Shown: piece after piece, positions 7,768 through 40,271 of the stretch
How the letters are laid out: each line of letters starts with the position of its first letter
Numbering within the stretch: position 1 is the stretch's first letter
Origin: Limisphaerales bacterium
Lineage (GTDB): Bacteria > Verrucomicrobiota > Verrucomicrobiia > Limisphaerales > SXTU01
DNA length: 64,000 nucleotides
Direction: 5' to 3'
NCBI GenBank assembly: GCA_009773355.1
Contig: WRPG01000020.1
Span: forward strand, 1 to 64,000
Notes under the pieces: generated by a model
Seen by the model: the letters and a program-made list of their open reading frames with translations, nothing else
Told to the model about the DNA's origin: nothing
Database searches by the model: none
Translations under genes and position numbers: made by a program

Positions 7768-9150
7768 CTAGGCCGCAAGCCTTTGTGGAACGGCTGCAAG
7801 ATTGAATCCGGCGCGGGCTATCCGGTTCATGTAATTCTCAGATTTCACCACGACACCGGGATGGGATTCGTGGCGCATGTGAGCCTGGATTAGTTCGCAG
7901 CGAACACCACCATTGAACGCTCGTAGCAGTTCACCCGCCGTTAAGGCACCGGCGAACGCACCAACGAAAGCAGTCGCAATCGACTTTCTTGCGAGCGTCT
8001 CGGCAAGAATCCCGCAATCCCCTTCGGTCTTAAAAGCGTCCACGAGTTTTCGATCAAGTTTGGCTTCCGGCACATCCGCCCAAATCTGAGCCGCAGCTTT
8101 TGAGGCTTCCGGGAAGGTGTGGAGAATCACTCGGTCAAACCGGTCCACGTCAGCGCCTAAAGCGCACTCAACAACAAGCTCAAAACCGGCCGACTCCAAG
8201 AGGCAGCGAGGTTCTGCGGCATCAAATCCGCAACAAGCGATATACGGCTCATCCCCTGTTCGTTTGGTATTGGCGTCGAAGGCGCGTTCGACAAGCGTGG
8301 TTTGAAAGCCGCGCGCTTCCACCCAGTCTGCGCATACCCTCGTCTTGTGCGTGCCGATATTGCCTTCTTCGCAGAGAAGGCCAGACGAGTAGTTTCCGCC
8401 AACAAGACGGTCGAAATCCTGTAGCACGAACCGGACTTCATCAGAGTGTGAGTAGGGGAGAAGGCCGATGCTCCAAAGATACGCTTGGCCCAAATGTCCA
8501 AGGCCAAGCATCCAAAGATTTTTTGGCAACGCCTCCAAAGACGGACCTTTCGCCTCAGGGGATGTCCATTCCAAATCTGGACGCCAAAGAGAAAGCCCTT
8601 GAGGCGATTCGAGGGTCCGAGTGCTCAAACCCGAAAGACGCAGGAATCCGCGTCCGACGCCAAACGCGGCGGCGAGAACTCCTCCAAGCGCAAAGTCAGC
8701 CTCATCGGGAAGCTCAAGTCGCGCGTGTGCCGGAATGATGCCGCCGCGCCAACCAGAACACACAAGTTGGAATGAGTCCGGCACGGGTGCAGATGGCTGC
8801 CCAAAATAGAGAGTATGTGTCCAAGGGGAGTGACCAAGGCCGACGGGGTTTCCTCCCAAGCCTTGAACAATCTGGTTCAAAGACTGGTTTCCTGGCCAGT
8901 TTAGCTGGCAAGGAACATTGTGAGGCATCGAAACAAAAACCCCTCCGTGAAATGCCCTCTTGCCTGTGTTCACGGCTGTAAGGAGCGCGGCCTGAAGGGC
9001 GCAGGACTGCGCAATCGTCTTATCGCAAATCAGATTCAGCCTCAATTGGCTGAGGAAAATAAGGGCTTCATTCGGGCCAAGTGATCGCTTGATCATGATG
9101 GCCTTAACCAGCCGATTCAGCGTGTCTTCGTTAAGGTTCGTTGTGTTCAT
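7768..9150 (-). CDS. bilC: E1-like ubiquitin-activating (ThiF-fold) protein of a Bil-like system
   Basis: 460 aa from ATG 9150, overlapping the JAB stop (ATGA). The N-terminal 190 residues are of unassigned fold. A Rossmann-like ThiF/E1 domain follows with the nucleotide-binding segment WMLGLGHLGQAYLW. The C-terminal DCGILAETLARKS, then GAFAGALTAGELLRAF, matches the catalytic-Cys region of bacterial E1 proteins. E1 enzymes adenylate the C-terminal glycine of a ubiquitin-like protein and pass it to E2. Last gene of the operon Ubl-E2-JAB-E1. The symbol follows the Bil (ISG15-like) antiphage system and rests on gene content; the gene order should be compared with characterised Bil loci. Confidence 0.8.
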   Translation of the reverse strand: MNTTNLNEDTLNRLVKAIMIKRSLGPNEALIFLSQLRLNLICDKTIAQSCALQAALLTAVNTGKRAFHGGVFVSMPHNVPCQLNWPGNQSLNQIVQGLGGNPVGLGHSPWTHTLYFGQPSAPVPDSFQLVCSGWRGGIIPAHARLELPDEADFALGGVLAAAFGVGRGFLRLSGLSTRTLESPQGLSLWRPDLEWTSPEAKGPSLEALPKNLWMLGLGHLGQAYLWSIGLLPYSHSDEVRFVLQDFDRLVGGNYSSGLLCEEGNIGTHKTRVCADWVEARGFQTTLVERAFDANTKRTGDEPYIACCGFDAAEPRCLLESAGFELVVECALGADVDRFDRVILHTFPEASKAAAQIWADVPEAKLDRKLVDAFKTEGDCGILAETLARKSIATAFVGAFAGALTAGELLRAFNGGVRCELIQAHMRHESHPGVVVKSENYMNRIARAGFNLAAVPQRLAA

Positions 9151-9620
9151 AAAAGGACGATTTTTACTGGCGCTGTTTTTTGCGACCAGGTTCTCCACTC
9201 GTGGTCTCCCAAGTATTCGTAAATCCCCACTCCCCGAAGCGACGATTTCGTGCGCTGGGCGAAGTGAGGAAGAATCAGCGCGAAGTGACCAATCTGGGCC
9301 ACCATTGGGTGCGTCCTATCGGACTCGCTTTGACCAGTCCAAGCTGATGGATGCGTGTGAACGTCCGCCAGAACGCGGAGTTCCTCGCTTCGACAGATTT
9401 CCCAGAGGCGAACGAAGCCGGAGGCGTGGAAAGTAATTATCCCCGTCTCAAGCGCAGATGCGTCGAGGTCATCGTAGCAACAAAAACGGGTCACTCGTTG
9501 GCTCCCCGGCTTACCCAATAGAAAGCCGCCGCTTTCATGCTCACCTTCTCCGCGCTCTCGAAGCTCGTGGAGGAGGCGACGCCAAAGGAGAATGGGAATC
9601 GTAAGTTTATGGGTCTTCAT
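9147..9620 (-). CDS. bilD: JAB/MPN+ deubiquitinase-like metalloprotease
   Basis: 157 aa. The full JAMM zinc motif is visible: an upstream Glu in HESGGFLLG, then HTHPSAWTGQSESD, which fits H-x-H-x7-S-x2-D. Such proteases release or mature ubiquitin-like proteins from conjugates. The start ATG at 9620 lies 14 bases inside the end of the E2 gene and the stop overlaps the E1 start, so all four genes are translationally coupled. Neighbouring E1, E2 and Ubl genes make a role as the deconjugase of this system much more likely than a cysteine-desulfurase or sulfur-carrier role. Confidence 0.88.
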   Translation of the reverse strand: MKTHKLTIPILLWRRLLHELRERGEGEHESGGFLLGKPGSQRVTRFCCYDDLDASALETGIITFHASGFVRLWEICRSEELRVLADVHTHPSAWTGQSESDRTHPMVAQIGHFALILPHFAQRTKSSLRGVGIYEYLGDHEWRTWSQKTAPVKIVLL

Positions 9621-10083
9621 GACGAACCGGGTTCAGGCACATGTGGACGAATTCCAAGTATTTCACGATGGTGAAGTCCGCACGCCACCACCAGAATGGG
9701 AACTGCTTTTGCCACGCATCGTGCCCCGTCATCGCAACGCGGTCGCAAGGCGCGTAGAGCGCGGTGCCCGCGTTCCAATCAACGCGAAAAACCAGAGCGA
9801 ATTTACCTGTGAGCTTCGGCCGGAGCGGATTTTCCAACACGGTGCCTTTCTCCAAATCCCAAGGGCAAGCGGTTGGCGCGCTCGCGGAATACCCATCCAA
9901 AGTGAATCGAAGATGGATTTTGCGAGAGGGGAGGATTCGCTCGTCGGCTGCAACCCACAGCACCGCGTGTGGCCACGTCACGCTTTCAAGCCCTGACGGC
10001 AGCCCCCATTTGGCGCGATCCACCCCCGATTGAAAAGGAGCCTCTTCAAGATGCGACCTGAAGAGGCTTTCGTCCGGTTTCAT
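9607..10083 (-). CDS. bilB: E2-like ubiquitin-conjugating protein
   Basis: 158 aa, ATG 10083 overlapping the Ubl stop codon (ATGA). A UBC-like core is suggested by strand-rich HAVLWVAADERILPSRKIHL, ACPWDLEKG and LYAPCDRVAM followed by GHDAW; the cysteine in APCDR is the best candidate for the catalytic thioester residue, with the ACPWD cysteine as the alternative. The E2 class found in bacterial Ubl operons shares this CPWD...YxPCDR layout, as far as I recall. It would accept the Ubl from E1 and transfer it to a target. No E3 gene is seen. Confidence 0.75.
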   Translation of the reverse strand: MKPDESLFRSHLEEAPFQSGVDRAKWGLPSGLESVTWPHAVLWVAADERILPSRKIHLRFTLDGYSASAPTACPWDLEKGTVLENPLRPKLTGKFALVFRVDWNAGTALYAPCDRVAMTGHDAWQKQFPFWWWRADFTIVKYLEFVHMCLNPVRHEDP

Positions 10084-10580
10084 CCTTGAACTTCCACAGG
10101 TGCGGTGAGGTCAAGATTCACGACACACTCATGCCCCTTAACGAAGGAGCCGATGTGGGCATCAAGCGGCAGTTCGTCGGTTGTGCTCCCGTGAAGCACC
10201 AGAATCTTGTCCGCAGCTTCGGCGGGAGTGAGACTGAACGCCTTGATGGCCCACTTCAGCACCCGCTTAACCGTAGCGGAAGGGGGGAAGGATTCATGCT
10301 CCTCGCCGTTGTAAAACACCGACACCTTGACCCGCTTGCAGGAGTGGCAATGCACATGGTGCCGATGGCGGACTTCGCACTCGCACACTTTGCGGTGCGC
10401 TTCGAGCGGTTCGTCGGAATCCTCCACGAAAAGGCGGACTTCGCCGTCGGGACCTGGATGCACGCCGCCAATCGCGACGATTGCTTGGATCAGTTGTTTA
10501 ACCGTGGCATCTTCGCTCGTCTGAACGAGGCGAGGCTCCACGCCATTTGCCGTGTGAACGTATACTTCTATTTTTTTCAT
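10080..10580 (-). CDS. bilA: Tandem ubiquitin-like protein ending in Gly (BilA/ISG15-like)
   Basis: 166 aa from ATG 10580. Two beta-grasp domains are visible: residues about 1-70 (KKIEVYVHTANGVEP...) and about 87-166 (RVKVSVFYNGEEHESFPPS). The protein ends VEVQG, so a terminal glycine is already exposed for adenylation without processing. The linker between the domains is unusually rich in His and Cys (VCECEVRHRHHVHCHSC), possibly a metal-binding knuckle. First gene of the Ubl-E2-JAB-E1 operon. Double-Ubl architecture and partners match Bil systems, which tag phage tail proteins in characterised cases. An upstream in-frame start at 10652 is rejected because it would run through the promoter palindrome. 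Confidence 0.8.
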   Translation of the reverse strand: MKKIEVYVHTANGVEPRLVQTSEDATVKQLIQAIVAIGGVHPGPDGEVRLFVEDSDEPLEAHRKVCECEVRHRHHVHCHSCKRVKVSVFYNGEEHESFPPSATVKRVLKWAIKAFSLTPAEAADKILVLHGSTTDELPLDAHIGSFVKGHECVVNLDLTAPVEVQG

Positions 10581-10628
10581 GTGTTTATTCTGTTCTAGCC
10601 AGCAACAGCGCCAGCTTTCCGTGACGCT

Positions 10629-10645
10629 ACTACGCAGTGCGTAGT
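10629..10645. promoter_or_regulatory. Palindromic operator candidate between Bil-like operon and XRE gene
   Basis: Perfect inverted repeat ACTACGCA-G-TGCGTAGT (8-bp arms, 1-bp centre) in the 155-bp divergent promoter region. It lies 49 bp upstream of the Ubl start and 91 bp upstream of the XRE start. The neighbouring XRE repressor is the obvious candidate ligand; binding is inferred, not shown. Confidence 0.6.
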
Positions 10646-10735
10646 CCGTCAAGCATTCGTTTAGCGGATTAAGAGAAGGCTTGCTTGGTGAAGCGGTGCT
10701 TGGTATCGAAGCCGAAACGTGATAAGCTTTCCCCC

Positions 10736-11104
10736 ATGAAAACCGACCTTGCTGAGACTAAAGCGCCAATGCCGTTCGGCGCGGGTTTGAGGACGGCGAG
10801 AGAGATGCGAAAACTTTCCCTGCGGGATGTGGAGGAGGCGACGGGAATTTCAAACGCTTACTTAAGCCAGCTAGAAACCGGAAAAATCAAAAAGCCGTCT
10901 CCACACTTTCTGCACAAACTCGCCGCACTCTATGACATTGGTTACGAGCTACTCATGGAGGCAGCAGGCTACGTTCTACGAAAGAGCACCGAAGGGCCAA
11001 AGACTCTCGCTGGTGCCGCCCTGTTCAGCCAAGAGAAGCTGACTCCAGAGGAGGAGGAAAAGCTTGCCGAATACCTGGCATTCCTCAGACGAAAGCAAAA
11101 GTGA
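10736..11104 (+). CDS. XRE-family HTH repressor
   Basis: 122 aa from ATG 10736. A Cro/CI-type helix-turn-helix lies at residues 15-70 (GLRTAREMRKLSLRDVEEAT, GISNAYLSQLETGK, PSPHFLHKLAALYDI). The C-terminal tail is acidic and charged (LTPEEEEKLAEYLAFLRR). The stop is immediately followed by the start of an ImmA/IrrE protease gene (TGAATG). XRE plus ImmA pairs control mobile elements such as ICEBs1 and, as DdrO/IrrE, the Deinococcus damage response: the protease cleaves the repressor on a signal. It is transcribed divergently from the Ubl operon across a shared palindrome, so it most likely represses that operon and itself. Confidence 0.88.
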   Translation: MKTDLAETKAPMPFGAGLRTAREMRKLSLRDVEEATGISNAYLSQLETGKIKKPSPHFLHKLAALYDIGYELLMEAAGYVLRKSTEGPKTLAGAALFSQEKLTPEEEEKLAEYLAFLRRKQK

Positions 11105-11992
11105 ATGAAACTTCCTCCGCTGGGCGCGGCAAAAGACATCGACAAGATCGCCGAAAATATCTTGGTCGCTTCGAAGGCCTGGGGGAAGTTTCCAACGCCC
11201 GTGGATCAGATTGTTGAATTTGCTGATCTTCAAGTCGTAAAAGGTGTCGATTTAAGCAAGGTCGAACCAGATTTCCTAACTTCCAATTTCCACTTCCTCT
11301 CCAAGGGACTGAAGAAGGTTCTTGGTCTGGTGGACTTGAGGCAGAAGACGATTTACTTGGACCAAACTCAGAAGGAACCTCGAAAGAACTTCGTAAAGCT
11401 GCATGAGGTTGGACACAAGGCGCTATCCTGGCAAAGCGATTTGAAGGGTTTCATGGACGATGAGAAATCTCTCGATCCAGAAGTAGACGAGGAATTTGAA
11501 AGGGAGGCGAGTTACTTCGCATCGGACGCCCTGTTCCAATTGGATATTTTCGATGATGAGGCGTCGAAGCTCCCGCTCGGCATCAACTCGGTTAAAGCCC
11601 TCGCGCAGAAGTTCGGAGGTTCAAATCATGCGACGATCCGAAGATACGTCGAAAGGTCAAATAAGCGGTGTGCCGTGCTGGTCTTGCACAAGCCTGAATC
11701 GAACGGCGAATACTCCGCAAAAATCCGCGACTATTTTCAATCGCCAACATTTACCGCTGCTTTCGGACAGATTACGTGGACCAACGGAAAATGCGGTTTG
11801 GATTTGGTTTTTGTGCAGGAGATCAAGAGGGGAAGGAAATTCCACGAGGACGGTCAAGTCGCCCTCCTGACTGGGTCGGGCGAATTCGTAACCTTCAAAT
11901 TCCATTTTTTTAACAACACCTTCAACACCTTCATCTTGATTCTCCCGTTGGGGGAGAAGATCAAGTCACGAATCGTTATCGTGGCGAAGTAA
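11105..11992 (+). CDS. ImmA/IrrE-type (COG2856) zinc protease
   Basis: 295 aa. The zinc motif KLHEVGHKAL (HExxH) sits near residue 100 and the downstream third ligand is in EFEREASYFASDAL, the arrangement of ImmA/IrrE proteins. The C-terminal 130 residues are beta-rich and of unknown fold, a possible sensory domain. The start codon directly follows the XRE stop, so the two proteins are made together. The GC content is visibly lower than in the flanking chromosome, which suggests acquisition. Predicted role: signal-dependent cleavage of the XRE repressor and release of the divergent Ubl operon. Confidence 0.87.
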   Translation: MKLPPLGAAKDIDKIAENILVASKAWGKFPTPVDQIVEFADLQVVKGVDLSKVEPDFLTSNFHFLSKGLKKVLGLVDLRQKTIYLDQTQKEPRKNFVKLHEVGHKALSWQSDLKGFMDDEKSLDPEVDEEFEREASYFASDALFQLDIFDDEASKLPLGINSVKALAQKFGGSNHATIRRYVERSNKRCAVLVLHKPESNGEYSAKIRDYFQSPTFTAAFGQITWTNGKCGLDLVFVQEIKRGRKFHEDGQVALLTGSGEFVTFKFHFFNNTFNTFILILPLGEKIKSRIVIVAK

Positions 11993-32801: not shown

Positions 32802-33183
32802 GGATTCAAACTTTTCAATTTCTCATCCGGAAGGGATTCAACGAAGGGGTAGATCAAGCAGAAGCTGTCGGAAGCAAAGTGGAAGCAGCCAAGCGCTCAG
32901 CCATGACTCCAGTGACAGGCCTGACAAACTAGACCGAATTGCTAAAAACTTATTGACGTAACCTTTGTCTCGTATTAGAAGTCTTTCGCATTCGAAGACC
33001 TGTATGAACAAGTCAATACAACAGACCAGACTGACAGTCGCCTTGGCGACACGTCATGAATGGACGCGTTGTGATGGCGCGTTCAGTCTGGGACGCCATT
33101 CCGGTATGTCGGGGTATATCCCCGGCCTTAATCCGAAGCGGTCCCCAGTAAGCAGGTAACGAGAGAACCAGTTTTTCGACTCA
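32802..33183. other. Stretch without a gene
   Basis: No supported gene. A copy of the motif agtaagcagg (33146-33155) precedes the terminator hairpin that repeats it. Confidence 0.5.
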
Positions 33184-33669: not shown

Positions 33670-33741
33670 AGGCTGCGCGTCAGCACGCGGCTGAGTCTCC
33701 AAAACTCAGCCCACTCCGGGCGGCACGGAGGCAGCCTGCCA
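33670..33741 (+). tRNA. tRNA-Trp (CCA), noncanonical elbow
   Basis: Acceptor AGGCTGC/GCAGCCT fully paired, G73 and encoded CCA, as expected for Trp. Anticodon loop CTCCAAA in a 5-bp stem. The D-arm is reduced to 3 bp with a 6-base loop (TCAGCA); the T-loop is GGCGGCA instead of TTCRANN. Only 69 nt before CCA. Confidence 0.82.
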
Positions 33742-33749
33742 ATTTCAGT

Positions 33750-33821
33750 GGGGTCGTGGCAGACAAGCAATGCACCTGTTTTGCAAGCAGGTTGATGTGG
33801 GAGCGTTACCCACCGACTCCA
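33750..33821 (+). tRNA. tRNA-Ala (UGC), noncanonical elbow
   Basis: Acceptor GGGGTCG/CGACTCC contains the G3:U70 pair that defines Ala. Anticodon loop TTTGCAA. T-loop AGCGTTA; D-stem 3 bp with loop GACAAGCAA, no GG. A73 is followed by CCC, so A76 is not encoded. Confidence 0.87.
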
Positions 33822-33830
33822 CCCTTTCAC

Positions 33831-33903
33831 TGCGGGGAGAATGAGATTCAGGCGAGCCTCATAAGCTCTGTCTTCGTGGGTGCGACTCCCACCCCCGCTA
33901 CCA
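33831..33903 (+). tRNA. tRNA-Met (CAU), possibly initiator
   Basis: Acceptor TGCGGGG/CCCCGCT leaves positions 1 and 72 unpaired (T-T), as initiators do, and the other six pairs equal those of E. coli tRNA-fMet. Anticodon loop CTCATAA, but the stem lacks the three G-C pairs of initiators. T-loop TGCGACT; A73 and CCA encoded. Confidence 0.8.
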
Positions 33904-33907
33904 TTTC

Positions 33908-33996
33908 GGGCAGTGTCCCGGCTGCCGGTCCGTAAAACCGGTGTTACAAAACCAGCCGGAAGCCGACGACTGGAGCGTTACCAGCGCTGCCCACCA
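33908..33996 (+). tRNA. tRNA-Tyr (GUA), class II, almost no D-arm
   Basis: Acceptor GGGCAGT/GCTGCCC, A73, CCA. Anticodon loop CCGTAAA with C33. Only about ten bases replace the D-arm (GTCCCGGCTG). Long variable arm, correct for Tyr. T-loop AGCGTTA. Confidence 0.78.
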
Positions 33997-34103
33997 GCCT
34001 TCGCCGCTTCCGCTCGAAAGTGGCGAAGGCTGGCACGCCGAAGCTCTTTGAGCGAAGGCGGACTTTCATGTCAGGCGAAGGAACGGCTTCGGCCCGGCAA
34101 GCC
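33997..34103 (+). repeat. tRNA-tail element, long form
   Basis: Starts GCCTTCGCCGC directly after the CCA of tRNA-Tyr and ends GGCCCGGCAAGCCA. Inner hairpin gccttcgccgctt/gtggcgaaggc. The same start and end recur behind other tRNAs of the array. Confidence 0.8.
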
Positions 34104-34109
34104 ATTTCT

Positions 34110-34183
34110 GGACTCGTAGCTCAAGGCAGAGCGCCCCGTTGTCTGCGGGAGGGTTGAGGGTGCAAGCCCCTTCGGGTCCGCCA
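34110..34183 (+). tRNA. tRNA-Asp (GUC)
   Basis: Acceptor GGACTCG/CGGGTCC, G73 (Asp identity), CCA. Anticodon loop TTGTCTG. D-stem GCTC/GAGC with a short loop AAGGCA that keeps a GG. T-loop TGCAAGC. Confidence 0.88.
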
Positions 34184-34275
34184 TTTTCAGAATCTTCAAG
34201 GCGGGACTGTTCCCAGGGTTGATGTCTCGCCTCCCTCAGTCCCGGCTCCGTCGCCCGACGGAGCCGGGGCCTTCT

Positions 34276-34350
34276 CAGCACGTGGTGTAGGAGCAACATG
34301 CCCGGCTTGGGCCCGGGTGACCGCAGGTGCAAGTCCTGCCGCGCTGTCCA
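34276..34350 (+). tRNA. tRNA-Pro (UGG), copy 1
   Basis: Acceptor CAGCACG/CGCGCTG with C1:G72 (Pro-like) and one mismatch at position 5; T73, CCA. Anticodon loop CTTGGGC. T-loop TGCAAGT. A hairpin (cggctccgtcg/cgacggagccg) lies just upstream. Confidence 0.85.
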
Positions 34351-34356
34351 TTTTTC

Positions 34357-34432
34357 GCTGCCGTGGCCGAACACACGAGGCATCCGTCTTCTAAACGGAA
34401 CGATGCAGGTGGGAGTCCTGCCGGCAGCGCCA
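34357..34432 (+). tRNA. tRNA-Arg (UCU)
   Basis: Acceptor GCTGCCG/CGGCAGC, G73, CCA. Anticodon loop CTTCTAA. D-stem GCC/GGC with loop GAACACACGA, no GG. T-loop TGGGAGT. Confidence 0.87.
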
Positions 34433-34465
34433 GTCTTCGCCGGTCGGTTTCGACTCGGCGAGCCA
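34433..34465 (+). repeat. tRNA-tail element, short form
   Basis: GTCTTCGCC...CTCGGCGAGCCA fills the whole spacer between the CCA of tRNA-Arg(UCU) and tRNA-Asn. Confidence 0.7.
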
Positions 34466-34466
34466 T

Positions 34467-34541
34467 TGCCAGGTGGTGTCAAAGTAGCACGACGGTTTGT
34501 TAAACCGCACGGTCCTGGTGCGAGTCCAGGCCTGGCAGCCA
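34467..34541 (+). tRNA. tRNA-Asn (GUU)
   Basis: Acceptor TGCCAGG/CCTGGCA (U1:A72), G73 (Asn identity), CCA. Anticodon loop TTGTTAA. D-stem GTG/CAC, loop TCAAAGTAG, no GG. T-loop TGCGAGT. Confidence 0.88.
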
Positions 34542-34545
34542 GTGT

Positions 34546-34621
34546 CAGGGTGTAATGTCAGCAGCAGACGGCCTTGTTCGGAACGAGGAGGTCGCGAGTG
34601 CAACTCTCGCCATCCTGACCA
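34546..34621 (+). tRNA. tRNA-Pro (CGG)
   Basis: Acceptor CAGGGTG/CATCCTG with C1:G72, A73, CCA. Anticodon loop TTCGGAA. D-stem GTC/GAC, loop AGCAGCA. T-loop TGCAACT. Confidence 0.87.
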
Positions 34622-34626
34622 TTTCT

Positions 34627-34716
34627 GGAAGGCAGGCAGATACAAGCTGGCTGCACCTGTCCCGAAAACAGGGTCCGTTCAACCGGAGGTCGGAGCATTA
34701 CCGACGCCTTCCGCCA
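34627..34716 (+). tRNA. tRNA-Ser (CGA), class II
   Basis: Acceptor GGAAGGC/GCCTTCC, G73 (Ser), CCA. Anticodon loop CCCGAAA with C33. Long variable arm as expected of Ser. T-loop AGCATTA in a perfect 5-bp stem. Confidence 0.85.
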
Positions 34717-34742
34717 CTTCACCCTCAACGAAAGGAAACCCA

Positions 34743-34907
34743 ATGAAACCAACCATCCGCTACCAGAGCCAGTTGCTCCCTCGCCGGAGCTACAAACCCA
34801 ATCGAGTCCTCCGCATCCATCCGGTGGAGAAGTTGAACTTCGTCTTCCGACCGGTGCGCTTCGGAGTGAAACCACAAATCAAAACACATGAATGCGAAGC
34901 ACATTGA
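34743..34907 (+). CDS. 54-aa basic protein inside the tRNA array
   Basis: ATG 34743 has a strong ribosome-binding site (AAAGGAAACCC). The product is basic (RYQSQLLPRRSYKPNRVLR, FVFRPVRFGVKPQ) with no recognised family, and its last 20 bases overlap the next gene, which suggests coupling. It could be a small RNA-binding protein or simply a leader peptide. Confidence 0.5.
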   Translation: MKPTIRYQSQLLPRRSYKPNRVLRIHPVEKLNFVFRPVRFGVKPQIKTHECEAH

Positions 34908-35718
34908 GTCCAAATTCGCCGCGATGGGCGCGCGCCTGGAGGTGCGTGAAATCGCGTCGCGCTGGCAGTTGGGAGACCGCAAGTGGATTGACCCGGTGGA
35001 CTACGCCGTGGACATCCGGCGCGATGGCGACGGGGAGTTCTTCGAACTCCGCATGCCGACGCACCTGAGCGAGACGGTGGAGACCACGGTCCTCCAATGT
35101 GAGCCGAAGCAGCGCCATCTGCTTCTGCTCATCCGCAAGCCGGGTGAGGCACCGCAGCTTGACCGCTTCCTGTGCGGGCACGACGAACGCGAATGGTTCG
35201 TCGCCGCCGTGCCGGGCGGCGCGTCGAGCGTGCGTCAGGCCATGGATGCGCTCCAGCCGGGGGATGTTCGTGTGGCGCTCGCGCGCCATCACGTTTCGTC
35301 CCGCAAGCGCTACGAGCGCAAGAACCGGGCCTTTCGCCGCCAAGGCGAATGGTTCTTCGTGCCGGAGCCGGCGTTGGTGGTGGACGAGCAGCTCGTTCTC
35401 CGCAACGAACCACTGCGGCGCGGTGGCGGGAAGCCGCACCTCGTGGAGCAGCTCTACCGCACGGGCGGCGAGACGGTCCACGTCTGCGCGAAGCATCCGA
35501 ACGGAATCCTCGACAAGGATTATCGCGAACTGGTGCGCGTGAACCCGAAGGCCGCCCACTGGGCCTGGCGGGTGATGCGCCGCAATCCGGGCGTCTATGC
35601 CCGGGGCACGGTGCACCATAGCGACCACGCCACCATCACGCTGCCGGTCTGGCACAGGGTGGTGATGAACACCGAGACCCAGAGCCGCACGATGGCCAAC
35701 GTCGCGTTCCTGGACTAA
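34888..35718 (+). CDS. Unknown 276-aa protein embedded in the tRNA array
   Basis: No family recognised. The protein is soluble, basic in its centre (RHHVSSRKRYERKNRAFRRQ then GEWFFVPEP) and rich in His, Arg and Trp; it begins ESKFAAMGARLEVREIASRW and ends HHSDHATITLPVWHRVVMN. It is the largest gene within the array, has normal GC and codon use, and is followed by a hairpin before tRNA-Ile. Its location makes a role with these tRNAs (modification, protection, processing) or with mobility of the array attractive, without direct evidence. Confidence 0.7.
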   Translation: MNAKHIESKFAAMGARLEVREIASRWQLGDRKWIDPVDYAVDIRRDGDGEFFELRMPTHLSETVETTVLQCEPKQRHLLLLIRKPGEAPQLDRFLCGHDEREWFVAAVPGGASSVRQAMDALQPGDVRVALARHHVSSRKRYERKNRAFRRQGEWFFVPEPALVVDEQLVLRNEPLRRGGGKPHLVEQLYRTGGETVHVCAKHPNGILDKDYRELVRVNPKAAHWAWRVMRRNPGVYARGTVHHSDHATITLPVWHRVVMNTETQSRTMANVAFLD

Positions 35719-35724
35719 GCCATG

Positions 35725-35758
35725 ATCGGGAGGTGCTCCTCGCGGGGTGCCTCCCGAT
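35725..35758 (+). terminator. Hairpin after the 276-aa gene
   Basis: Inverted arms ATCGGGAGG / CCTCCCGAT around a GC-rich loop; only a weak T-tract follows, so termination may be partial. Confidence 0.55.
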
Positions 35759-35767
35759 TCACTTTCC

Positions 35768-35841
35768 CGTCCCGTAGCTCAAAAGCAGAGCGCCCGGCTG
35801 ATAACCGGAAGACGCAGGAGCGTTACCTGCCAGGACGACCA
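35768..35841 (+). tRNA. tRNA-Ile (GAU)
   Basis: Acceptor CGTCCCG/CAGGACG with one C-A mismatch, A73, CCA. Anticodon loop CTGATAA. D-stem GCTC/GAGC with loop AAAAGCA. T-loop AGCGTTA in GCAGG/CCTGC. Confidence 0.85.
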
Positions 35842-35877
35842 GCCTTCGCTCGCCGAGCTTCGGCTCGGCGAGCCAGT
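35842..35877 (+). repeat. tRNA-tail element, short form
   Basis: GCCTTCGCTC...GGCTCGGCGAGCCA immediately behind the CCA of tRNA-Ile. Confidence 0.75.
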
Positions 35878-35933
35878 TGACCAAGACAACTCGCGCATGG
35901 CTGCACCGCGAAATGGTGGCCGTGCGCCAGCAC

Positions 35934-36008
35934 CCCCGAGTAGCTGAGGCAGATTAGCGCCTCCCTGAAGAGGAGGAGACGTTGGCGCGCTACCAACCTC
36001 GGGGACCA
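35934..36008 (+). tRNA. tRNA-Phe (GAA)
   Basis: Acceptor CCCCGAG/CTCGGGG, A73, CCA. Anticodon loop CTGAAGA in a perfect 5-bp stem. D-stem GCT/AGC with loop GAGGCAGATT. T-loop CGCGCTA, unique in the array. Confidence 0.87.
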
Positions 36009-36029
36009 TTTATTGGTGCCACGCCAATC

Positions 36030-36108
36030 GTCCGTGAATGCAAAGGCAGCTCGCGCACCCGGATTTTCAATCCGGGCCTAGCCGGTGCGAGACCGGCCAC
36101 GGACGCCA
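36030..36108 (+). tRNA. tRNA-Glu (UUC)
   Basis: Acceptor GTCCGTG/CACGGAC, G73, CCA, all Glu-like. Anticodon loop TTTTCAA. D-stem 3 bp around a 13-base loop. T-loop TGCGAGA. Confidence 0.88.
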
Positions 36109-36128
36109 GTGGTGGCACAACGCCAGTT

Positions 36129-36207
36129 GCTCTCAAGGTGTAAGCAGATTCTGCACGCCGCTTTGCGAAGGCGGAGGTTCGTGGTGCAAGTCCACGTGAG
36201 AGCGCCA
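36129..36207 (+). tRNA. tRNA-Arg (GCG)
   Basis: Acceptor GCTCTCA/TGAGAGC, G73, CCA. Anticodon loop TTGCGAA: an unmodified GCG anticodon, unusual because bacteria normally read CGN with ACG. T-loop TGCAAGT. Confidence 0.82.
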
Positions 36208-36215
36208 GTTTCAAC

Positions 36216-36292
36216 GCCCCTGTGCCTCAGCAGCCACAGGGCGGGTTTCGTAAACCCGTATTCGTCGGTTGCGAGTCCGACCAGGGGCTCCA
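36216..36292 (+). tRNA. tRNA-Thr (CGU)
   Basis: Acceptor GCCCCTG/CAGGGGC with G1:C72 and C2:G71 (Thr identity), T73, CCA. Anticodon loop TTCGTAA. T-loop is eight bases (TTGCGAGT), the only one of that size. Confidence 0.86.
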
Positions 36293-36384
36293 GCCCTCGC
36301 TCTTCGCTGCGCTGCAAGCTACGGCTTGGCAAGCCGCTCGTGATGCGGACTTGTCACGCCGAAGCGCCGCGCGCGAAGGCGGAT
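36293..36384 (+). repeat. tRNA-tail element, long form
   Basis: GCCCTCGCTC behind the CCA of tRNA-Thr(CGU), then GCTACGGCTTGGCAAGCC, then a second arm gtcacgccgaag...gcgaaggcgga up to tRNA-His. Confidence 0.75.
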
Positions 36385-36459
36385 GGTGATCATGATGTAA
36401 CAGCAGCATCCCGCCCCGTGAAGGCGGCTGTGCCGGTGCGAATCCGGTTGGTCACCCCA
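36385..36459 (+). tRNA. tRNA-His (GUG) with G-1
   Basis: Acceptor GTGATCA/TGGTCAC; an extra G at 36385 opposes C73, the His identity pair; CCA encoded. Anticodon loop CCGTGAA with C33. D-stem ATG/CAT, loop TAACAGCAG. T-loop TGCGAAT. Confidence 0.88.
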
Positions 36460-36510
36460 ATTTCCTAGGACGCGCCGGTCTTCGACTTGGCACGTCCTCC
36501 AAATTCTTTG

Positions 36511-36595
36511 AGCCGGTCAGCAGCCCTCTGGTCGTGACCGGAGCGGTCCTGCGCAATTGGCCGGCTCGTATGTGGTTCGAATCCACACTCGGCTG
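36511..36595 (+). pseudogene. tRNA-like remnant, possible Cys (GCA)
   Basis: AGCCGGT/CTCGGCT pair with one mismatch; T-arm TGTGG-TTCGAAT-CCACA with a canonical T-loop, unlike the array. A 10-base loop CTGCGCAATT closes an anticodon-like stem; GCA can be read within it. No CCA follows. Either a decayed tRNA or an unusual one. Confidence 0.4.
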
Positions 36596-36754
36596 AAAAC
36601 CGATGCTTGGCACGCATGGGGGAAACCCCGCACGACGCCGAGGGCAGCACGGCCCGCGCGCAAGCGCAGCCGGAACGCGGCTTTGCGAGTCCGCCCGTGG
36701 GACTCCCGCCGCCGACTGGCGGCCGCCTGCCCTTGGCGTTCAATTTCCCCACTC
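36596..36754. other. GC-rich spacer with tRNA-like pieces
   Basis: No gene. GGGCAGC (36644) can pair six of seven bases with CCTGCCC (36727), and a stem GCGG/CCGC with a 10-base loop CTTTGCGAGT lies between, so this may be another decayed tRNA; no CCA or T-loop is recognisable. Confidence 0.35.
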
Positions 36755-36823
36755 GTAGGAGACGACGTGAGGAAGTCTCTGACTGAGAAAGCAACAAGTG
36801 AGACTCGTCACCTCGTCTCCTAC
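36755..36823. repeat. GTAGGAGACGACGTGAGGA palindromic element, full copy
   Basis: Left arm gtaggagacgacgtgaggaa, right arm agactcgtcacctcgtctcc then tac. Second full copy at 38156. Confidence 0.9.
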
Positions 36824-36858
36824 AAACCCACGATCGCCAAACCCGAAAGGAGCCACCC

Positions 36859-37281
36859 ATGAACATCGAAACCATCACCTTCATCCTCATCGCCGCCGTA
36901 ATCCTCGCGGCGGTTGCCGCCTCGCTCGTCAACCGCTTCCGCCACACGTTCATCGTGGGTGAAGGCTCTGCCGGCCTGCTCTACCGCGACGGCAAGTTCG
37001 CCGAGCGTCTCGACGCCGGCCGTCATGTGCGCTGGGGCCGCCGCTTCACCCTGAACGCCGTTGACCTCCGCCGCACGCAGCTCGCCATTGCGGGCCAGGA
37101 AGTGCTCACGGCGGACAACGTCGCACTCAAGCTCACGGTCACCGTCACCTACCAAGTGGCCGACCCGGCGCTCGCTGCGCACACGACGCAGAGCTGGTAT
37201 GCCGACCTCTACCACCTCGCGCACCTTCCCAACCGGAGTAGAGGGCGCGCCACCCTCATGCCCGTCCATTTTCCCAAGTGA
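36859..37281 (+). pseudogene. Truncated SPFH/band-7 (slipin-like) protein
   Basis: ATG 36859 with ribosome-binding site AAAGGAGCC. Residues 1-28 are a membrane helix (ITFILIAAVILAAVAAS), then the beginning of an SPFH domain (FIVGEGSAGLLYRDGKF, AGQEVLTADNVALKLTVTVT, YQVADPALA). After about residue 120 homology ends; the last codons run through a tRNA 3' half (T-arm GAGGG-CGCGCCA-CCCTC, then ATGCCCG, T, CCA, 37236-37273). Two thirds of a normal slipin are missing. The gene looks cut by recombination with a tRNA, though a short functional protein cannot be excluded. Confidence 0.7.
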
Positions 37282-37358
37282 ACCCCGCCTGCCGGCAGAG
37301 ACCTCGCACGGTCGAAGTAATGGCCGGGGGCCGGGTTCGGTGCGCTTGGGATTTCCCG

Positions 37359-37433
37359 CAGAGCGTAGCCTAAAAGTGAGGCACCTGCCTTGGGAGCAGG
37401 AGCAAGCGGGAGCGTTACCCGCCGCTCTGACCA
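37359..37433 (+). tRNA. tRNA-Pro (UGG), copy 2
   Basis: Acceptor CAGAGCG/CGCTCTG with C1:G72, A73, CCA. Anticodon loop CTTGGGA in CCTGC/GCAGG. D-stem GCC/GGC, loop TAAAAGTGA. T-loop AGCGTTA, unlike copy 1, so the two are not recent duplicates. Confidence 0.87.
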
Positions 37434-37445
37434 TTTCGCGCGACG

Positions 37446-37525
37446 CGAGTGCCGGTGACGGCCAGGACTTCACAGGCCTGGCCTCGGTGGTTCGACTCCA
37501 CGCTCGCGTCGCGTCTGGGTTGCAA
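37446..37525 (+). pseudogene. tRNA-like structure with extended acceptor
   Basis: GCGACGCGAG and CTCGCGTCGC (10 bp) enclose a D-hairpin GCCG-GTGA-CGGC, a stem CCAGG/CCTGG with a 10-base loop ACTTCACAGG, and a T-arm with canonical loop TTCGACT. No CCA. Anticodon could be CAC (Val) or UCA; unresolved. The 3' end touches tRNA-Lys(CUU). Confidence 0.4.
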
Positions 37526-37591
37526 ACTTTGACAGTGAAGTCCCGGCTCTTAACCGGCGAGAACTCGGTGCGATTCCGAGGCGACCCACCA
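37517..37591 (+). tRNA. tRNA-Lys (CUU)
   Basis: Acceptor GGGTTGC/GCGACCC, A73, CCA. Anticodon loop CTCTTAA. D-stem ACT/AGT. T-loop TGCGATT in CTCGG/CCGAG. Confidence 0.87.
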
Positions 37592-37593
37592 TT

Positions 37594-37683
37594 GTGAGCA
37601 GGTGAGCGGGTGGGAAAGTGAGCCGGTGAGCAAAGCACTGTCGCGTTAGCTCACTTTCTCGCTTTCCCACTTTCTCACCCGCC
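37594..37683. repeat. Palindromic spacer element (GTGGGAAAGTGAG type)
   Basis: Left part gcgggtgggaaagtgagc, right part gctcactttc... gctttcccac and ctcacccgc form a long imperfect hairpin between tRNA-Lys and tRNA-Arg. Confidence 0.8.
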
Positions 37684-37692
37684 TTCCTTTCA

Positions 37693-37768
37693 GCATCCGT
37701 GGTGAAATTATGATCATCCTCCGCTTCGAACGGAGAGTTTGCAGGTGAGAGTCCTGCCGGATGCACCA
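37693..37768 (+). tRNA. tRNA-Arg (UCG)
   Basis: Acceptor GCATCCG/CGGATGC, A73, CCA. Anticodon loop CTTCGAA in CTCCG/CGGAG. D-loop AAATTATGAT, no GG. T-loop TGAGAGT. Confidence 0.88.
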
Positions 37769-37797
37769 GCCTTCGCTTCGAGCTACGGCCCGGTAAA
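37769..37797 (+). repeat. tRNA-tail element, short form
   Basis: GCCTTCGCTTCGAGC then TACGGCCCGGTAAACCA directly after the CCA of tRNA-Arg(UCG). Confidence 0.75.
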
Positions 37798-37806
37798 CCA
37801 ATTCAC

Positions 37807-37883
37807 GCCGCGTTAGCCCAACTACAAGAGGCGCTCCGCTCAGAACGGAGAGGTTGTGGGTGGAAATCCCTCACGCGGCACCA
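37807..37883 (+). tRNA. tRNA-Leu (CAG) with short variable loop
   Basis: Acceptor GCCGCGT/ACGCGGC, A73, CCA. Anticodon loop CTCAGAA in CTCCG/CGGAG. Variable region only AGGTT, although bacterial Leu tRNAs are class II. T-loop TGGAAAT. Confidence 0.83.
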
Positions 37884-37902
37884 TTCCTGGCCTTGGCCAG
37901 CG

Positions 37903-37977
37903 GCTCCCGTAGCCCAACGCAGAGGCGGCGGACTTAAACCCCGCACAGTGTCAGTGCAACTCTGACCGGGAGCACCA
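37903..37977 (+). tRNA. tRNA-Leu (UAA) with short variable loop
   Basis: Acceptor GCTCCCG/CGGGAGC, A73, CCA. Loop CTTAAAC gives UAA; the closing 31-39 pair is A-C. Variable region ACAGT. D-stem GCC/GGC. T-loop TGCAACT. Confidence 0.8.
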
Positions 37978-38052
37978 CCGCGTGTAACCCAATGAAGAGG
38001 CGTCCCGCTCAAGCCGGGAAGGTTGCAGGTGCAAGTCCTGCCACGCGGACCA
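37978..38052 (+). tRNA. tRNA-Leu (CAA) with short variable loop
   Basis: Starts on the base after the previous CCA. Acceptor CCGCGTG/CACGCGG, A73, CCA. Anticodon loop CTCAAGC in TCCCG/CGGGA. Variable AGGTT. T-loop TGCAAGT. Confidence 0.85.
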
Positions 38053-38056
38053 ATTT

Positions 38057-38148
38057 GGAATGTCAACCGGTCGAGCGCGCCGGGCCTGTTTGCTAAACAG
38101 TGCGCTCCGCGCAAGCGGAGTGTGGTGCGAGTCCACGGCATTCCGCCA
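38057..38148 (+). tRNA. tRNA-Ser (GCU), class II
   Basis: Acceptor GGAATGT/GCATTCC, G73, CCA. Anticodon loop TTGCTAA. Long variable arm hairpin (CTCCGC/GCGGAG). T-loop TGCGAGT. Confidence 0.88.
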
Positions 38149-38155
38149 ATCATTC

Positions 38156-38235
38156 GTAGGAGACGACGTGAGGAGTCTCAATCCAGAACAGAATCGCACG
38201 ACGACCGATCAGAGACTCGTCACCTCGTCTCCTAC
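38156..38235. repeat. GTAGGAGACGACGTGAGGAG palindromic element, full copy
   Basis: Left arm gtaggagacgacgtgaggag, right arm agactcgtcacctcgtctcc then tac. Same element as 36755-36823, with a different core. Confidence 0.9.
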
Positions 38236-38244
38236 GAATCCAGC

Positions 38245-38336
38245 GCGCGCGTAGCTCAAAGAGAGCCGGCGGCTTTATACCCCGCATCGCACTAGATGAG
38301 TGCCGGGATCCGGAGCGTTACCGGACGCGCGCACCA
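38245..38336 (+). tRNA. Class II tRNA, anticodon UAU (Ile) or UUA
   Basis: Acceptor GCGCGCG/CGCGCGC, A73, CCA. D-stem GCTC/GAGC with 5-base loop. The best stem (GCGGC/CCCGC, four pairs) gives loop TTTATAC, anticodon UAU; a weaker register gives CTTTATA, anticodon UUA. Long variable hairpin GCACT/AGTGC. T-loop AGCGTTA. Confidence 0.75.
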
Positions 38337-38343
38337 ATTTTCT

Positions 38344-38417
38344 GCGGGTGTGGTTCAACAGCAGAATGCGGCTTTGCCAAGGCCGAGACGACGGTGCGAC
38401 TCCGTTCACCCGCTCCA
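38344..38417 (+). tRNA. tRNA-Gly (GCC)
   Basis: Acceptor GCGGGTG/CACCCGC, T73 (Gly identity), CCA. Anticodon loop TTGCCAA in CGGCT/GGCCG. D-stem GTTC/GAAT, loop AACAGCA. T-loop TGCGACT. Confidence 0.9.
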
Positions 38418-38420
38418 CTC

Positions 38421-38506
38421 TGAAAGTTGAGGGTTGAAGGTTGAGAGTTGAGAGGCCGGACGCAGTTTTGCCGGTCTGCGCTTCTCTCAACCATCAACTC
38501 TCAACC
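38421..38506. repeat. Palindromic spacer element (TTGAGAGTTGAGAG type)
   Basis: Left ggttgagagttgagag and right cttctctcaaccatcaactc, then tcaacc, are inverted around a GC hairpin. Confidence 0.8.
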
Positions 38507-38513
38507 AAGCACC

Positions 38514-38588
38514 GCCCCCAAAGCATTGTCAGCGATGCACTCGCTCGGTAAGCGAGTCAGCCCGGTGCAACTCCGGGTGGGGGCCCCA
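38514..38588 (+). tRNA. tRNA-Thr (GGU)
   Basis: Acceptor GCCCCCA/TGGGGGC with G1:C72, C2:G71 (Thr identity), C73, CCA. Anticodon loop TCGGTAA with C33. D-stem GCA/TGC, loop TTGTCAGCGA. T-loop TGCAACT. Confidence 0.85.
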
Positions 38589-38592
38589 ATCT

Positions 38593-38661
38593 CGCAGTCG
38601 AGCCAGCGCTCAAACGGGTTTCATAAGCCCGCTGGGTCCGGGGCGGCACCGGGGACTGCGA
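38593..38661 (+). tRNA. tRNA-Met (CAU), second copy
   Basis: Acceptor CGCAGTC/GACTGCG, A73 followed by CCG, so CCA is incomplete. Anticodon loop TTCATAA in CGGGT/GCCCG. D-arm reduced to GAG/CTC with loop CCAGCG. T-loop GGCGGCA as in tRNA-Trp. Could be elongator Met or an Ile with lysidine-34. Confidence 0.78.
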
Positions 38662-38668
38662 CCGTTTC

Positions 38669-38740
38669 GCCTCCATGCAGCAGCCTGCGGATTCCTTTTG
38701 TAAAGCGATCCTGCCGGGGCAGCACCGGCGGGAGGCTCCA
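38669..38740 (+). tRNA. tRNA-Thr (UGU)
   Basis: Acceptor GCCTCCA/GGGAGGC (G1:C72, C2:G71; one mismatch), T73, CCA. Anticodon loop TTTGTAA in a 5-bp stem with one mismatch. D-arm GCA/TGC with loop GCAGCC. T-loop GGCAGCA. Confidence 0.75.
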
Positions 38741-38752
38741 TTTTGCCGAGCA

Positions 38753-38827
38753 GCTCGCGTAGCCCAACGCAGAGGCACGACGTCGAGAGCGTCGCCAGTG
38801 CGGGTGCAAGTCCCGCCGCGAGCACCA
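38753..38827 (+). tRNA. tRNA-Leu (GAG) with short variable loop
   Basis: Acceptor GCTCGCG/CGCGAGC, A73, CCA. Anticodon loop TCGAGAG with C33 in CGACG/CGTCG. Variable CCAGT. D-loop nearly identical to tRNA-Leu(UAA). T-loop TGCAAGT. Confidence 0.85.
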
Positions 38828-38920
38828 GCCTTCGCTCTTCGCTTCGCTGCGAGCTTCGGCTCGGCAAGCCAGTCACTTTCCGCGCGAGCTTGCCACGCCA
38901 TAGCGCGCAGCGCGGAGGCG
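38828..38920 (+). repeat. tRNA-tail element, long form
   Basis: GCCTTCGCTC behind the CCA of tRNA-Leu(GAG), GCTTCGGCTCGGCAAGCCA, then agcttgccacgcc...gcggaggcg up to tRNA-Lys(UUU). Confidence 0.78.
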
Positions 38921-38994
38921 GGAGTCGAAGCCACAGCAGACCGGCACCCGGCTTTTACCCGGACACGGTGAGGTTGCAACTACCTCCGGCTCCA
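38921..38994 (+). tRNA. tRNA-Lys (UUU)
   Basis: Acceptor GGAGTCG/CGGCTCC, A73 followed by CCC. Anticodon loop CTTTTAC in CCCGG/CCGGA. D-stem GCC/GGC, loop ACAGCAGACC. T-loop TGCAACT. Confidence 0.86.
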
Positions 38995-38997
38995 CCC

Positions 38998-39106
38998 GCC
39001 TTCGCCTGCGACGCAGGAGCGGGCGAAGACTGCCGCGCCAAAGCACGAAGTGCGACGGCGGGCTTCACTCGCAGGGAACAGGCTACGGCTCGGCAAGCCA
39101 GAGGGA
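38998..39106 (+). repeat. tRNA-tail element, long form
   Basis: GCCTTCGCCTGCG a few bases behind tRNA-Lys(UUU), inner actgccgcgccaaag and gcgacggcggg arms, ending GGCTACGGCTCGGCAAGCCA. Confidence 0.75.
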
Positions 39107-39125
39107 ATCTGCTCAACTTGCCAGC

Positions 39126-39371
39126 ATGAGCTTCCACTACGTCTATATCCTGCGAAGCGTCGCAAATCCGGATCGCCATTACGTCGGCCTCACCGACGAT
39201 CTCCAGGAAAGACTTGGCAAACACAATGCGGGTGAAGTGACGCACACCGCAAAGTTCAAGCCCTGGGTGATCAAGACGGCCAACGCCTTCCGCGAGCGTG
39301 AACGCGCTGCTGAATTCGAGCGATACCTGAAATCGGGGTCAGGCCGTGCGTTTGCCCGAAAGCACTTTTAA
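39126..39371 (+). CDS. Single-domain GIY-YIG nuclease
   Basis: 81 aa. The domain starts FHYVYILRSVANPDRHYVG (YVY-x-YVG for GIY-YIG), continues with the catalytic Arg and Asn in DDLQERLGKHN, and ends AAEFERYLKSGSGRAFARKH, as in UPF0213/YhbQ-like proteins. It sits between tRNA-Lys and tRNA-Gln on the array strand. Stand-alone GIY-YIG proteins are frequent in this phylum, so it may be a passenger; within a tRNA array a homing or DNA-repair role is conceivable. Confidence 0.9.
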   Translation: MSFHYVYILRSVANPDRHYVGLTDDLQERLGKHNAGEVTHTAKFKPWVIKTANAFRERERAAEFERYLKSGSGRAFARKHF

Positions 39372-39372
39372 C

Positions 39373-39447
39373 TGCCTCGTGGTGTAACACGCAGCATACC
39401 GGGTTTTGACCCCGTCGGTCCTGGTGCGAATCCAGGCGAGGCAGCCA
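39373..39447 (+). tRNA. tRNA-Gln (UUG)
   Basis: Acceptor TGCCTCG/CGAGGCA with U1:A72 and G73, both Gln identity elements; CCA. Anticodon loop TTTTGAC. D-loop TAACACGCAG, no GG. T-loop TGCGAAT. Starts one base after the GIY-YIG stop. Confidence 0.88.
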
Positions 39448-39470
39448 ATGTTTGCAAGTCGAGCTTCGAC

Positions 39471-39544
39471 CGCCCGGTGGTGAAATAGCATCACGGCTGG
39501 CCTACACCCAGCAGTCGAGGGGGCAGAACCTTCCCGGGCGACCA
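39471..39544 (+). tRNA. tRNA-Val (UAC)
   Basis: Acceptor CGCCCGG/CCGGGCG, A73, CCA. Anticodon loop CCTACAC with C33 in GCTGG/CCAGC. D-stem GTG/CAC, loop AAATAGCAT. T-loop GGCAGAA. Last tRNA of the array. Confidence 0.86.
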
Positions 39545-39654: not shown

Positions 39655-40248
39655 ATGAACGACATCCTGAACAAATCGCTCGTGCTGGTGCTGAACCGCA
39701 ACTGGCAGGCGATCAACATCCGCACGCCTGCCGACGCGTTCTGCCAGATGGCGACGAACGTGGCCACCGCGCTCGACATCGAGGGCGACGAGCACATCCG
39801 CCCCGTGAAGTGGGACGAGTGGATCACGCTGCCGGTCCGGCCGCAGGACTACGCCGTGCAGACCGTGCGCGGCGCGATCCGCGTGCCGACGGTCATCGTG
39901 GCGGTGAACTTTGCCAAGGTGCCCAAGCGCCGCCCGCGCCTCTGCGCCAAGAGCATCCGCGAACGCGACGGCAACCGCTGCCAATACACCGGACGCCCGC
40001 TCCACCCGGACGAGGGCAGCCTCGACCACGTCCTGCCCCGCTCGCGCGGTGGCGCGGACTCGTGGGAGAATCTCGTCTGGGCCGCGAAAGACGTGAACCA
40101 GCGCAAGGCCGACCGCCTCCCGCACGAAGCCGGCCTCAAGCTGCTCACCGTCCCGCGCGCGCCGAAGGAACTGCCGGTGAGCACCCTCATCCGCAACCCC
40201 CACGGCATCGCGGACTGGGAGCTGTTCGTGAAGGCAAACTTCGCGTAG
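39655..40248 (+). CDS. HNH endonuclease
   Basis: 197 aa. The HNH motif is intact near residues 110-165: RDGNRCQYTGR, SLDHVLPRSRGGADSWENL, NQRKADRLPHEAGL, the form seen in many bacterial HNH proteins of Verrucomicrobia and cyanobacteria. The N-terminus (LVLVLNRNWQAINIRTPADA) is the usual extension of that family. It is the last gene on the strand of the tRNA array and its TAG stop codon lies inside a palindromic repeat half. Role unknown; could mobilise the array. Confidence 0.9.
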   Translation: MNDILNKSLVLVLNRNWQAINIRTPADAFCQMATNVATALDIEGDEHIRPVKWDEWITLPVRPQDYAVQTVRGAIRVPTVIVAVNFAKVPKRRPRLCAKSIRERDGNRCQYTGRPLHPDEGSLDHVLPRSRGGADSWENLVWAAKDVNQRKADRLPHEAGLKLLTVPRAPKELPVSTLIRNPHGIADWELFVKANFA

Positions 40249-40271
40249 GAGACGACGTGAGGAGTCTCAAG
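40245..40271. repeat. GTAGGAGACGACGTGAGGAG element, half copy
   Basis: Left half only; the TAG of the HNH gene is bases 2-4 of the element. Confidence 0.85.

Follow-up and report, generated by a model that had tools for sequence, protein, structure and literature searches.

Dense clusters of tRNA genes redundant with the chromosomal complement and containing one embedded HNH endonuclease gene have been described as tRNA array units in mycobacteria and their phages and plasmids (PMC5966550, PMC12803027); in M. avium, the units hold a single conserved HNH gene, and their tRNAs duplicate chromosomal ones (PMC12803027). The Anabaena trn operon is likewise a large, redundant tRNA operon, and translational stress induces it along with genes for RtcB, slipin, and HNH proteins (PMC10272220). 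Among individual tRNAs, animal mitochondrial tRNA-Leu lacks the long variable arm and so is also a class I tRNA-Leu (PMC9976931), the tRNA-Ile(UAU) of M. mobile and lactic acid bacteria reads AUA by a UAU anticodon without lysidine (PMC4810244, PMC9976931), the nematode nev-tRNA-Ile(UAU) combines a UAU anticodon with a variable arm (PMC4300185), and tRNAs with 8/4 or 9/3 cloverleaves are non-canonical with unexpected combinations of anticodon and arm (PMC7609411).

Here we describe a tRNA array in a Limisphaerales bacterium (GCA_009773355.1; 6.16 Mb, 162 contigs), located in a 64,000-nt stretch of contig WRPG01000020.1 (positions 1 to 64,000, C77 in our numbering), the whole of which we refer to as the window. 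The array is a dense, redundant tRNA cluster with an embedded HNH gene, as are the mycobacterial, phage, and plasmid units, and it contains a truncated slipin gene. It differs from the mycobacterial units in its G55 elbows, its short-arm Leu tRNAs throughout, and a two-armed tRNA-Ile(UAU). Its scanner-parsed tRNAs, unlike the 8/4 or 9/3 tRNAs, keep a 7/5 acceptor/T branch, with no 8/4 or 9/3 forms.

The tRNA Array and Its Genomic Setting

The array and its associated genes, other than the Leu and Ile(UAU) tRNAs listed below, are as follows.

33670-39544, + strand: tRNA array, at least 28 tRNA-like genes; G55 in 28/28, no TTC
33908-33996, + strand: probable tRNA-Tyr(GUA), class II, A73; found by eye, missed by ARAGORN and the structural scanner
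34627-34716, + strand: tRNA-Ser(CGA), class II, G73; structural scanner
34888-35718, + strand: array-associated ORF with homologues in Verrucomicrobiota and large viral contigs
35768-35841, + strand: array tRNA-Ile(GAU), class I; AGCGTTA T loop identical to that of the UAU gene
36859-37281, + strand: truncated SPFH/Band-7 (slipin-like) gene within the array; Pfam Band_7 1.6e-11, profile 1-81 of 176
38057-38148, + strand: tRNA-Ser(GCU), class II, G73; structural scanner
39126-39371, + strand: GIY-YIG endonuclease gene; Pfam 8.4e-14
39655-40248, + strand: HNH endonuclease gene at the array end; array marker in relatives, 71 loci

ARAGORN recognized 17 tRNA genes in the array, while a structural scanner with no requirement for TTC or GG recognized 28 (33670-39544, all on the + strand). 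Tyr(GUA) and Met(CAU) genes and a UCA element were noted by eye. The array comprises ~30 divergent tRNAs. All 28 scanner genes scored ≥21.6, against a maximum of 21.1 in seven equal-length control stretches, which rule out chance structure as their source. GG is missing from the D loop in 23/28, and D loops such as AACAGCA, replacing AATGGTA, suggest that A18 lies opposite G55. The same G55 was present in 583 of the 593 tRNAs of related loci.

Elsewhere in the genome, the housekeeping tRNAs parsed are canonical, all having a T loop with TTC and a D loop with GG (43/43), and this set includes five class II Leu, one Ile(GAU), and three CAU tRNAs, with TilS also encoded. The genome thus has a complete canonical tRNA set apart from the array, which is therefore redundant. 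The window genes examined included no synthetase gene, the genome having the usual class I synthetases, and no array-specific enzyme was found.

Despite G55 and the loss of TTC, isotype identity elements are kept. Among array tRNAs, G3-U70 occurs in 10/11 Ala tRNAs vs. 2/572 others and G-1:C73 in 13/17 His tRNAs vs. 0/565 others; the array thus looks functional, and we have taken its members as working tRNAs. Discriminator bases also mostly agree with the housekeeping isotype. Relatives retrieved via the HNH gene were nearly all Verrucomicrobiota, with the array gene order kept across dozens of Verrucomicrobiota genomes. HNH homologues also sit in phage and plasmid tRNA arrays, and homologues of the ORF at 34888, which has no Pfam, NCBIfam, or PHROG match, were found on viral contigs up to 532 kb in length. 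The array is related to phage tRNA arrays.

Several further elements were noted. A tRNA-like element at 37441-37511 (+), with UCA in its loop, no CCA, extended acceptor/T pairing, and the sole TTC T loop noticed in the array, is conserved between other array genes in ~10 relatives; it matches Rfam tRNA-Sec weakly (27.2 bits) and is possibly a Sec-like or opal tRNA. Copies of GTAGGAGACGACGTGAGGAGTCTC lie at 36753-36823, 38152-38239, and 40244-40270 of the window, two of them as inverted hairpins between array genes, and are MITE- or REP-like. Related arrays contain class II Thr(CGU) and Thr(UGU) tRNAs with short-loop variable arms (L034, L039, L047, L048, L051, and L055) and, at position 7463 (+) of L048, a tRNA-like gene with a UUA (ochre) anticodon and a Gln-like G73. 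In the same genome, contig C97 (~7.5-10.8 kb, L153) holds a second small group of array-type Phe, Cys, and Glu tRNAs with G55 T loops. Away from the array, a cluster of small genes at 7768-11992 of the window looks by eye like a ubiquitin-like system of bacteria, accompanied by XRE and ImmA-like genes; three of its proteins were searched against NCBIfam and gave no match.

Leucine tRNAs with Short Variable Regions

Four Leu tRNAs, each recognized by both ARAGORN and the scanner and each with orthologues, are encoded in the array.

37807-37883, + strand: tRNA-Leu(CAG), class I, variable region AGGTT
37903-37977, + strand: tRNA-Leu(UAA), class I, variable region ACAGT
37978-38052, + strand: tRNA-Leu(CAA), class I, variable region AGGTT
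38753-38827, + strand: tRNA-Leu(GAG), class I, variable region CCAGT

A sequence-only reading of this DNA had reported five-base variable regions in these genes, which was borne out by the scanner (5 nt in 4/4) and by ARAGORN lengths of 75-77 nt. The long variable arm canonical for bacterial Leu tRNAs is absent from all four; in the housekeeping set, 5/5 Leu tRNAs are class II with arms of 13-17 nt. Array and housekeeping Leu tRNAs nevertheless have in common a D stem of 3 bp, A14-A15, AGA at the end of the D loop, U48, and A73, and all five features were found together in 56/65 class I Leu tRNAs vs. 0/477 non-Leu class I tRNAs. Animal mitochondrial tRNA-Leu is set apart from these genes, which are bacterial and phage and have a Leu-type D arm.

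Within related bacterial loci, 65/69 Leu tRNAs are class I, and of the four class II examples, two or more look like housekeeping genes. The short-arm Leu tRNAs are an inherited class and did not originate in the window array. Given that class I Leu tRNAs with ordinary GG and TTC occur in the phages S-CRM01, Mx1, and Rctr197k and in an M. avium plasmid, arm loss and the elbow change are separate events.

In E. coli, the long arm is dispensable for LeuRS, while A73 and the D/T tertiary contacts matter (PMC9976931). Given the retained Leu features and an enzyme with no need of the long arm, LeuRS most likely charges the short-arm Leu tRNAs as well. G18/Psi55-type elbow contacts are important for E. 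coli LeuRS, and the chief doubt here concerns the G55 elbow, as the array lacks contacts of this type.

A Two-Armed tRNA-Ile(UAU)

The gene at 38245 comprises the following features.

38245-38336, + strand: two-armed tRNA-Ile(UAU), 92 nt, A73, encoded CCA; covariance model 105 bits
38276-38278, + strand: anticodon UAU of the first arm, loop TTTATAC
38289-38303, + strand: second arm GCAC-TAGATGA-GTGC, with GAU at 38295-38297
38304-38308, + strand: linker CGGGA, 5 nt, as long as the variable region of a class I tRNA

Element by element, the gene reads GCGCGCG TA GCT CAAAGAG AGC CG GCGGC TTTATAC CCCGC ATC GCAC TAGATGA GTGC CGGGA TCCGG AGCGTTA CCGGA CGCGCGC ACCA. The long variable hairpin noted previously was recovered by both programs, as a 92-nt tRNA with a TAT anticodon at 38245-38336 (ARAGORN) and as a variable region of 23 nt (scanner). 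The preferred reading of the anticodon as UAU also stands, with this register giving a mean of 4.46/5 anticodon-stem pairs over 65 homologues (4 in the window copy, which has a C31-C39 mismatch in the UAU stem and a minimum free energy fold that is not a cloverleaf).

In the extra sequence, a linker of 3 nt leads into a hairpin (4-bp stem, 7-nt loop), after which come 5 nt; the second arm thus lies after position 43 and ahead of an ordinary variable region of 5 nt. Its covarying stem and loop pattern (NNGAUNA) make it look like an isoleucine-type (GAU) anticodon arm. A Leu- or Ser-type variable arm was considered and is disfavoured by A73, the D arm, and the linkers; the extra arm bears no recognizable Leu, Ser, or Tyr signature. 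Given that the Leu genes keep Leu features and that the extra arm of the UAU tRNA carries GAU, nothing points to amino acid reassignment in these sequences.

In M. mobile and lactic acid bacteria, tRNA-Ile(UAU) is of the ordinary class I form and is served by an adapted IleRS. The window gene has the UAU anticodon and A73 of the Mycoplasma type but not its class I variable region, with a 15-nt hairpin and 3-nt linker inserted, and a GAU second arm would stand in place of an adapted IleRS. The nematode nev-tRNA, in contrast, is eukaryotic, is charged with leucine in vitro, and has an arm described as a Leu-like V-arm rather than an anticodon loop (PMC4300185); both the D arm and the linker of the UAU gene differ from the Leu type of that comparison.

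Spread and Conservation of the Second Arm

Class II UAU tRNAs were counted 17 times in related bacterial loci and also occur in viral contigs and the cyanophage S-CRM01. As this tRNA and the short-arm Leu tRNAs recur in many related genomes, they are not a chance of annotation. Their presence in phages, and in further bacteria that have this array, also bears on the earlier proposal that variable-arm type was reassigned within the array; the decoupling of arm type from the isotype rule is upheld, but its origin inside this array is not.

The second arm is conserved in structure. Among 28 diverse homologues, all four second-arm pairs (4/4) show two-sided changes with 100% pairing. Under strict filtering, 65 sequences (chosen for a GAT-centred loop, so that the informative counts are those at positions outside GAT) contain 22 distinct stems, and a pair extending the 4-bp stem is almost never formed. 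In the loop of these 65, A38 is present in 61/65 while positions 32, 33, and 37 vary; the linkers are 3 and 5 nt in 59/65, to which the window copy conforms, and A73 is present in 63/65.

GAT was also recovered by searches that did not select for it. A viral scan with the stem fixed and the loop free returned GAT in 8/8 distinct tRNAs, and a scan requiring neither found, in 34/39 distinct tRNAs at new loci, a 7-nt loop centred on GAT above a fully paired 4-bp stem. The converse scan, requiring GAT with the stem free, returned a large set in which the flanks still form 4-bp stems. Among bacterial tRNAs retrieved via the HNH protein, with GAT not required, 12 of the 14 distinct ones have a GAT arm.

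GAT-centred second arms are present in 106/113 class II Ile(UAU) tRNAs, a number that includes GAT-selected loci, vs. 1 of ~200 class II tRNAs of other isotypes called by ARAGORN at the same loci; within the class II tRNAs examined, the second arm is nearly restricted to those with UAU. The second loop of L223, L269, L271, and L283 reads CTGATAA. Exceptions have GGT (L029), GAC (L051, L064, and L321), or other arms (L363, L379, and L402).

A covariance model run over 387 Verrucomicrobiota genomes matched in 227, mostly to ordinary tRNAs at <50 bits, with scores of ≥97 bits in G000, G294, and G524 only; in two genomes matched by the model, the stem is compensated and GAT is kept. A blast of the UAU gene of the window or of L088 against plasmids and named phages gave no match, while phage-type queries matched S-CRM01, S-SRM01, and S-SKS1. 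Two-armed UAU genes or close homologues lie at 145590-145679, 32944-33033, and 178509-178593 in these respective cyanophages, all three records having no tRNA annotation for the gene. A lax enumeration of TTATA tRNAs yielded mostly noise and was discarded. No description of a second arm bearing GAU turned up in searches of an open-access library, which covers only a minority of subscription papers.

Proposed Function and Alternative Explanations

We propose that the array serves as an accessory set of tRNAs, redundant but competent for translation and kin to the arrays of large phages, in which Leu tRNAs without the long arm would still be charged by a LeuRS reading A73 and the D/T core, and in which the UAU tRNA would decode AUA as isoleucine. 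The second GAU arm would supply the bases recognized by IleRS (G34, A35, U36, and A38), both anticodons, GAU and UAU, meaning isoleucine. We give this account as a whole a probability of about 0.58. Its most specific part, in which GAU acts as a synthetase handle and UAU as the decoder in one widespread phage and bacterial tRNA without lysidine, we hold at even odds.

Both the anticodon and the discriminator act as strong determinants of tRNA-Ile (PMC9976931), and unmodified tRNA-Ile(UAU) is charged by the IleRS of M. mobile but not by that of E. coli (PMC4810244). Under our proposal, the second arm would be carried because a typical bacterial IleRS is not expected to recognize an unmodified UAU. 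IleRS might bind the second arm directly; alternatively, given that this arm follows position 43 and a normal variable region comes after it, stacking under the D stem would in principle be open to either arm, and the two might swap places, with GAU presented for charging and UAU for decoding. Most second loops lack U33, which favours the UAU arm for decoding.

On the other hand, bacterial IleRS depends strongly on t6A37, and it counts against a handle that GAU is not invariant and that the second loop is variable at position 37 and rarely has U33. The host CAU tRNAs and TilS already read AUA, so the need for the UAU gene is unproven.

Of the alternatives, the best placed, though unlikely, is that the GAU arm has no charging role and is a decoy or shield against a defence nuclease that cleaves tRNA-Ile or variable arms, with loss of the Leu arm removing a nuclease target. 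Precedents include Septu, which cleaves the variable loop of tRNA-Tyr, and the T5 tRNA-Tyr, in which a distinctive variable loop confers resistance to retron-Eco7 (PMC13096335); phage tRNAs have been proposed as tRNase evaders (PMC10264068). This would leave unexplained the tie of the arm to UAU tRNAs and its match to Ile anticodon-loop positions, and cleavage in the second arm would still nick the tRNA. Evasion of tRNA-targeting defences may nonetheless be an alternative or additional role of the array, as might a part in translational stress.

Slightly less probable is that the long arm and A73 lead to misacylation of the class II UAU tRNA with leucine, which would make AUA ambiguous. The window gene does have A73, and the nematode V-arm tRNA-Ile(UAU) was charged in vitro only with leucine (PMC4300185), but the D arm here is not Leu-type (GCT-CAAAGAG-AGC vs. 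GCC-CAACGCAGA-GGC), 5 nt separate the arm from the T stem, and a conserved GAU loop would be without a role.

We consider it doubtful, a little more so than misacylation, that the array is decaying or consists of non-translational RNA (e.g., tRNA-like regulatory RNA) whose odd arms reflect drift. The missing GG/TTC elbow, the redundancy with housekeeping genes, the truncated slipin gene, and some weak stems would fit such decay; the retention of G3-U70, G-1:C73, and isotype discriminators, the strong second-arm covariation, and the gene order conserved in dozens of genomes argue against it. Finally, an ochre suppressor with the anticodon UUA, an alternative raised in the sequence-only reading as TTA is readable one base leftward in the loop, is highly improbable, given that the register shift costs stem pairs (mean 1.86 vs. 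4.46 of 5; 3 in the window copy) and that U33 and the purine at 37 fit UAU.

Implications

With the short-arm Leu tRNAs and G55 elbows, nature offers a test of the tRNA features that are truly required by bacterial enzymes and by the ribosome. If the GAU arm is indeed an IleRS handle, amino-acid identity would have been split from decoding by duplication of an anticodon arm in a natural tRNA. The AUA problem, which is met elsewhere by lysidine, agmatidine, or an adapted IleRS, would then have a further, new solution, and the tRNA would show how phages use host synthetases, in a design that could inform engineered tRNAs.
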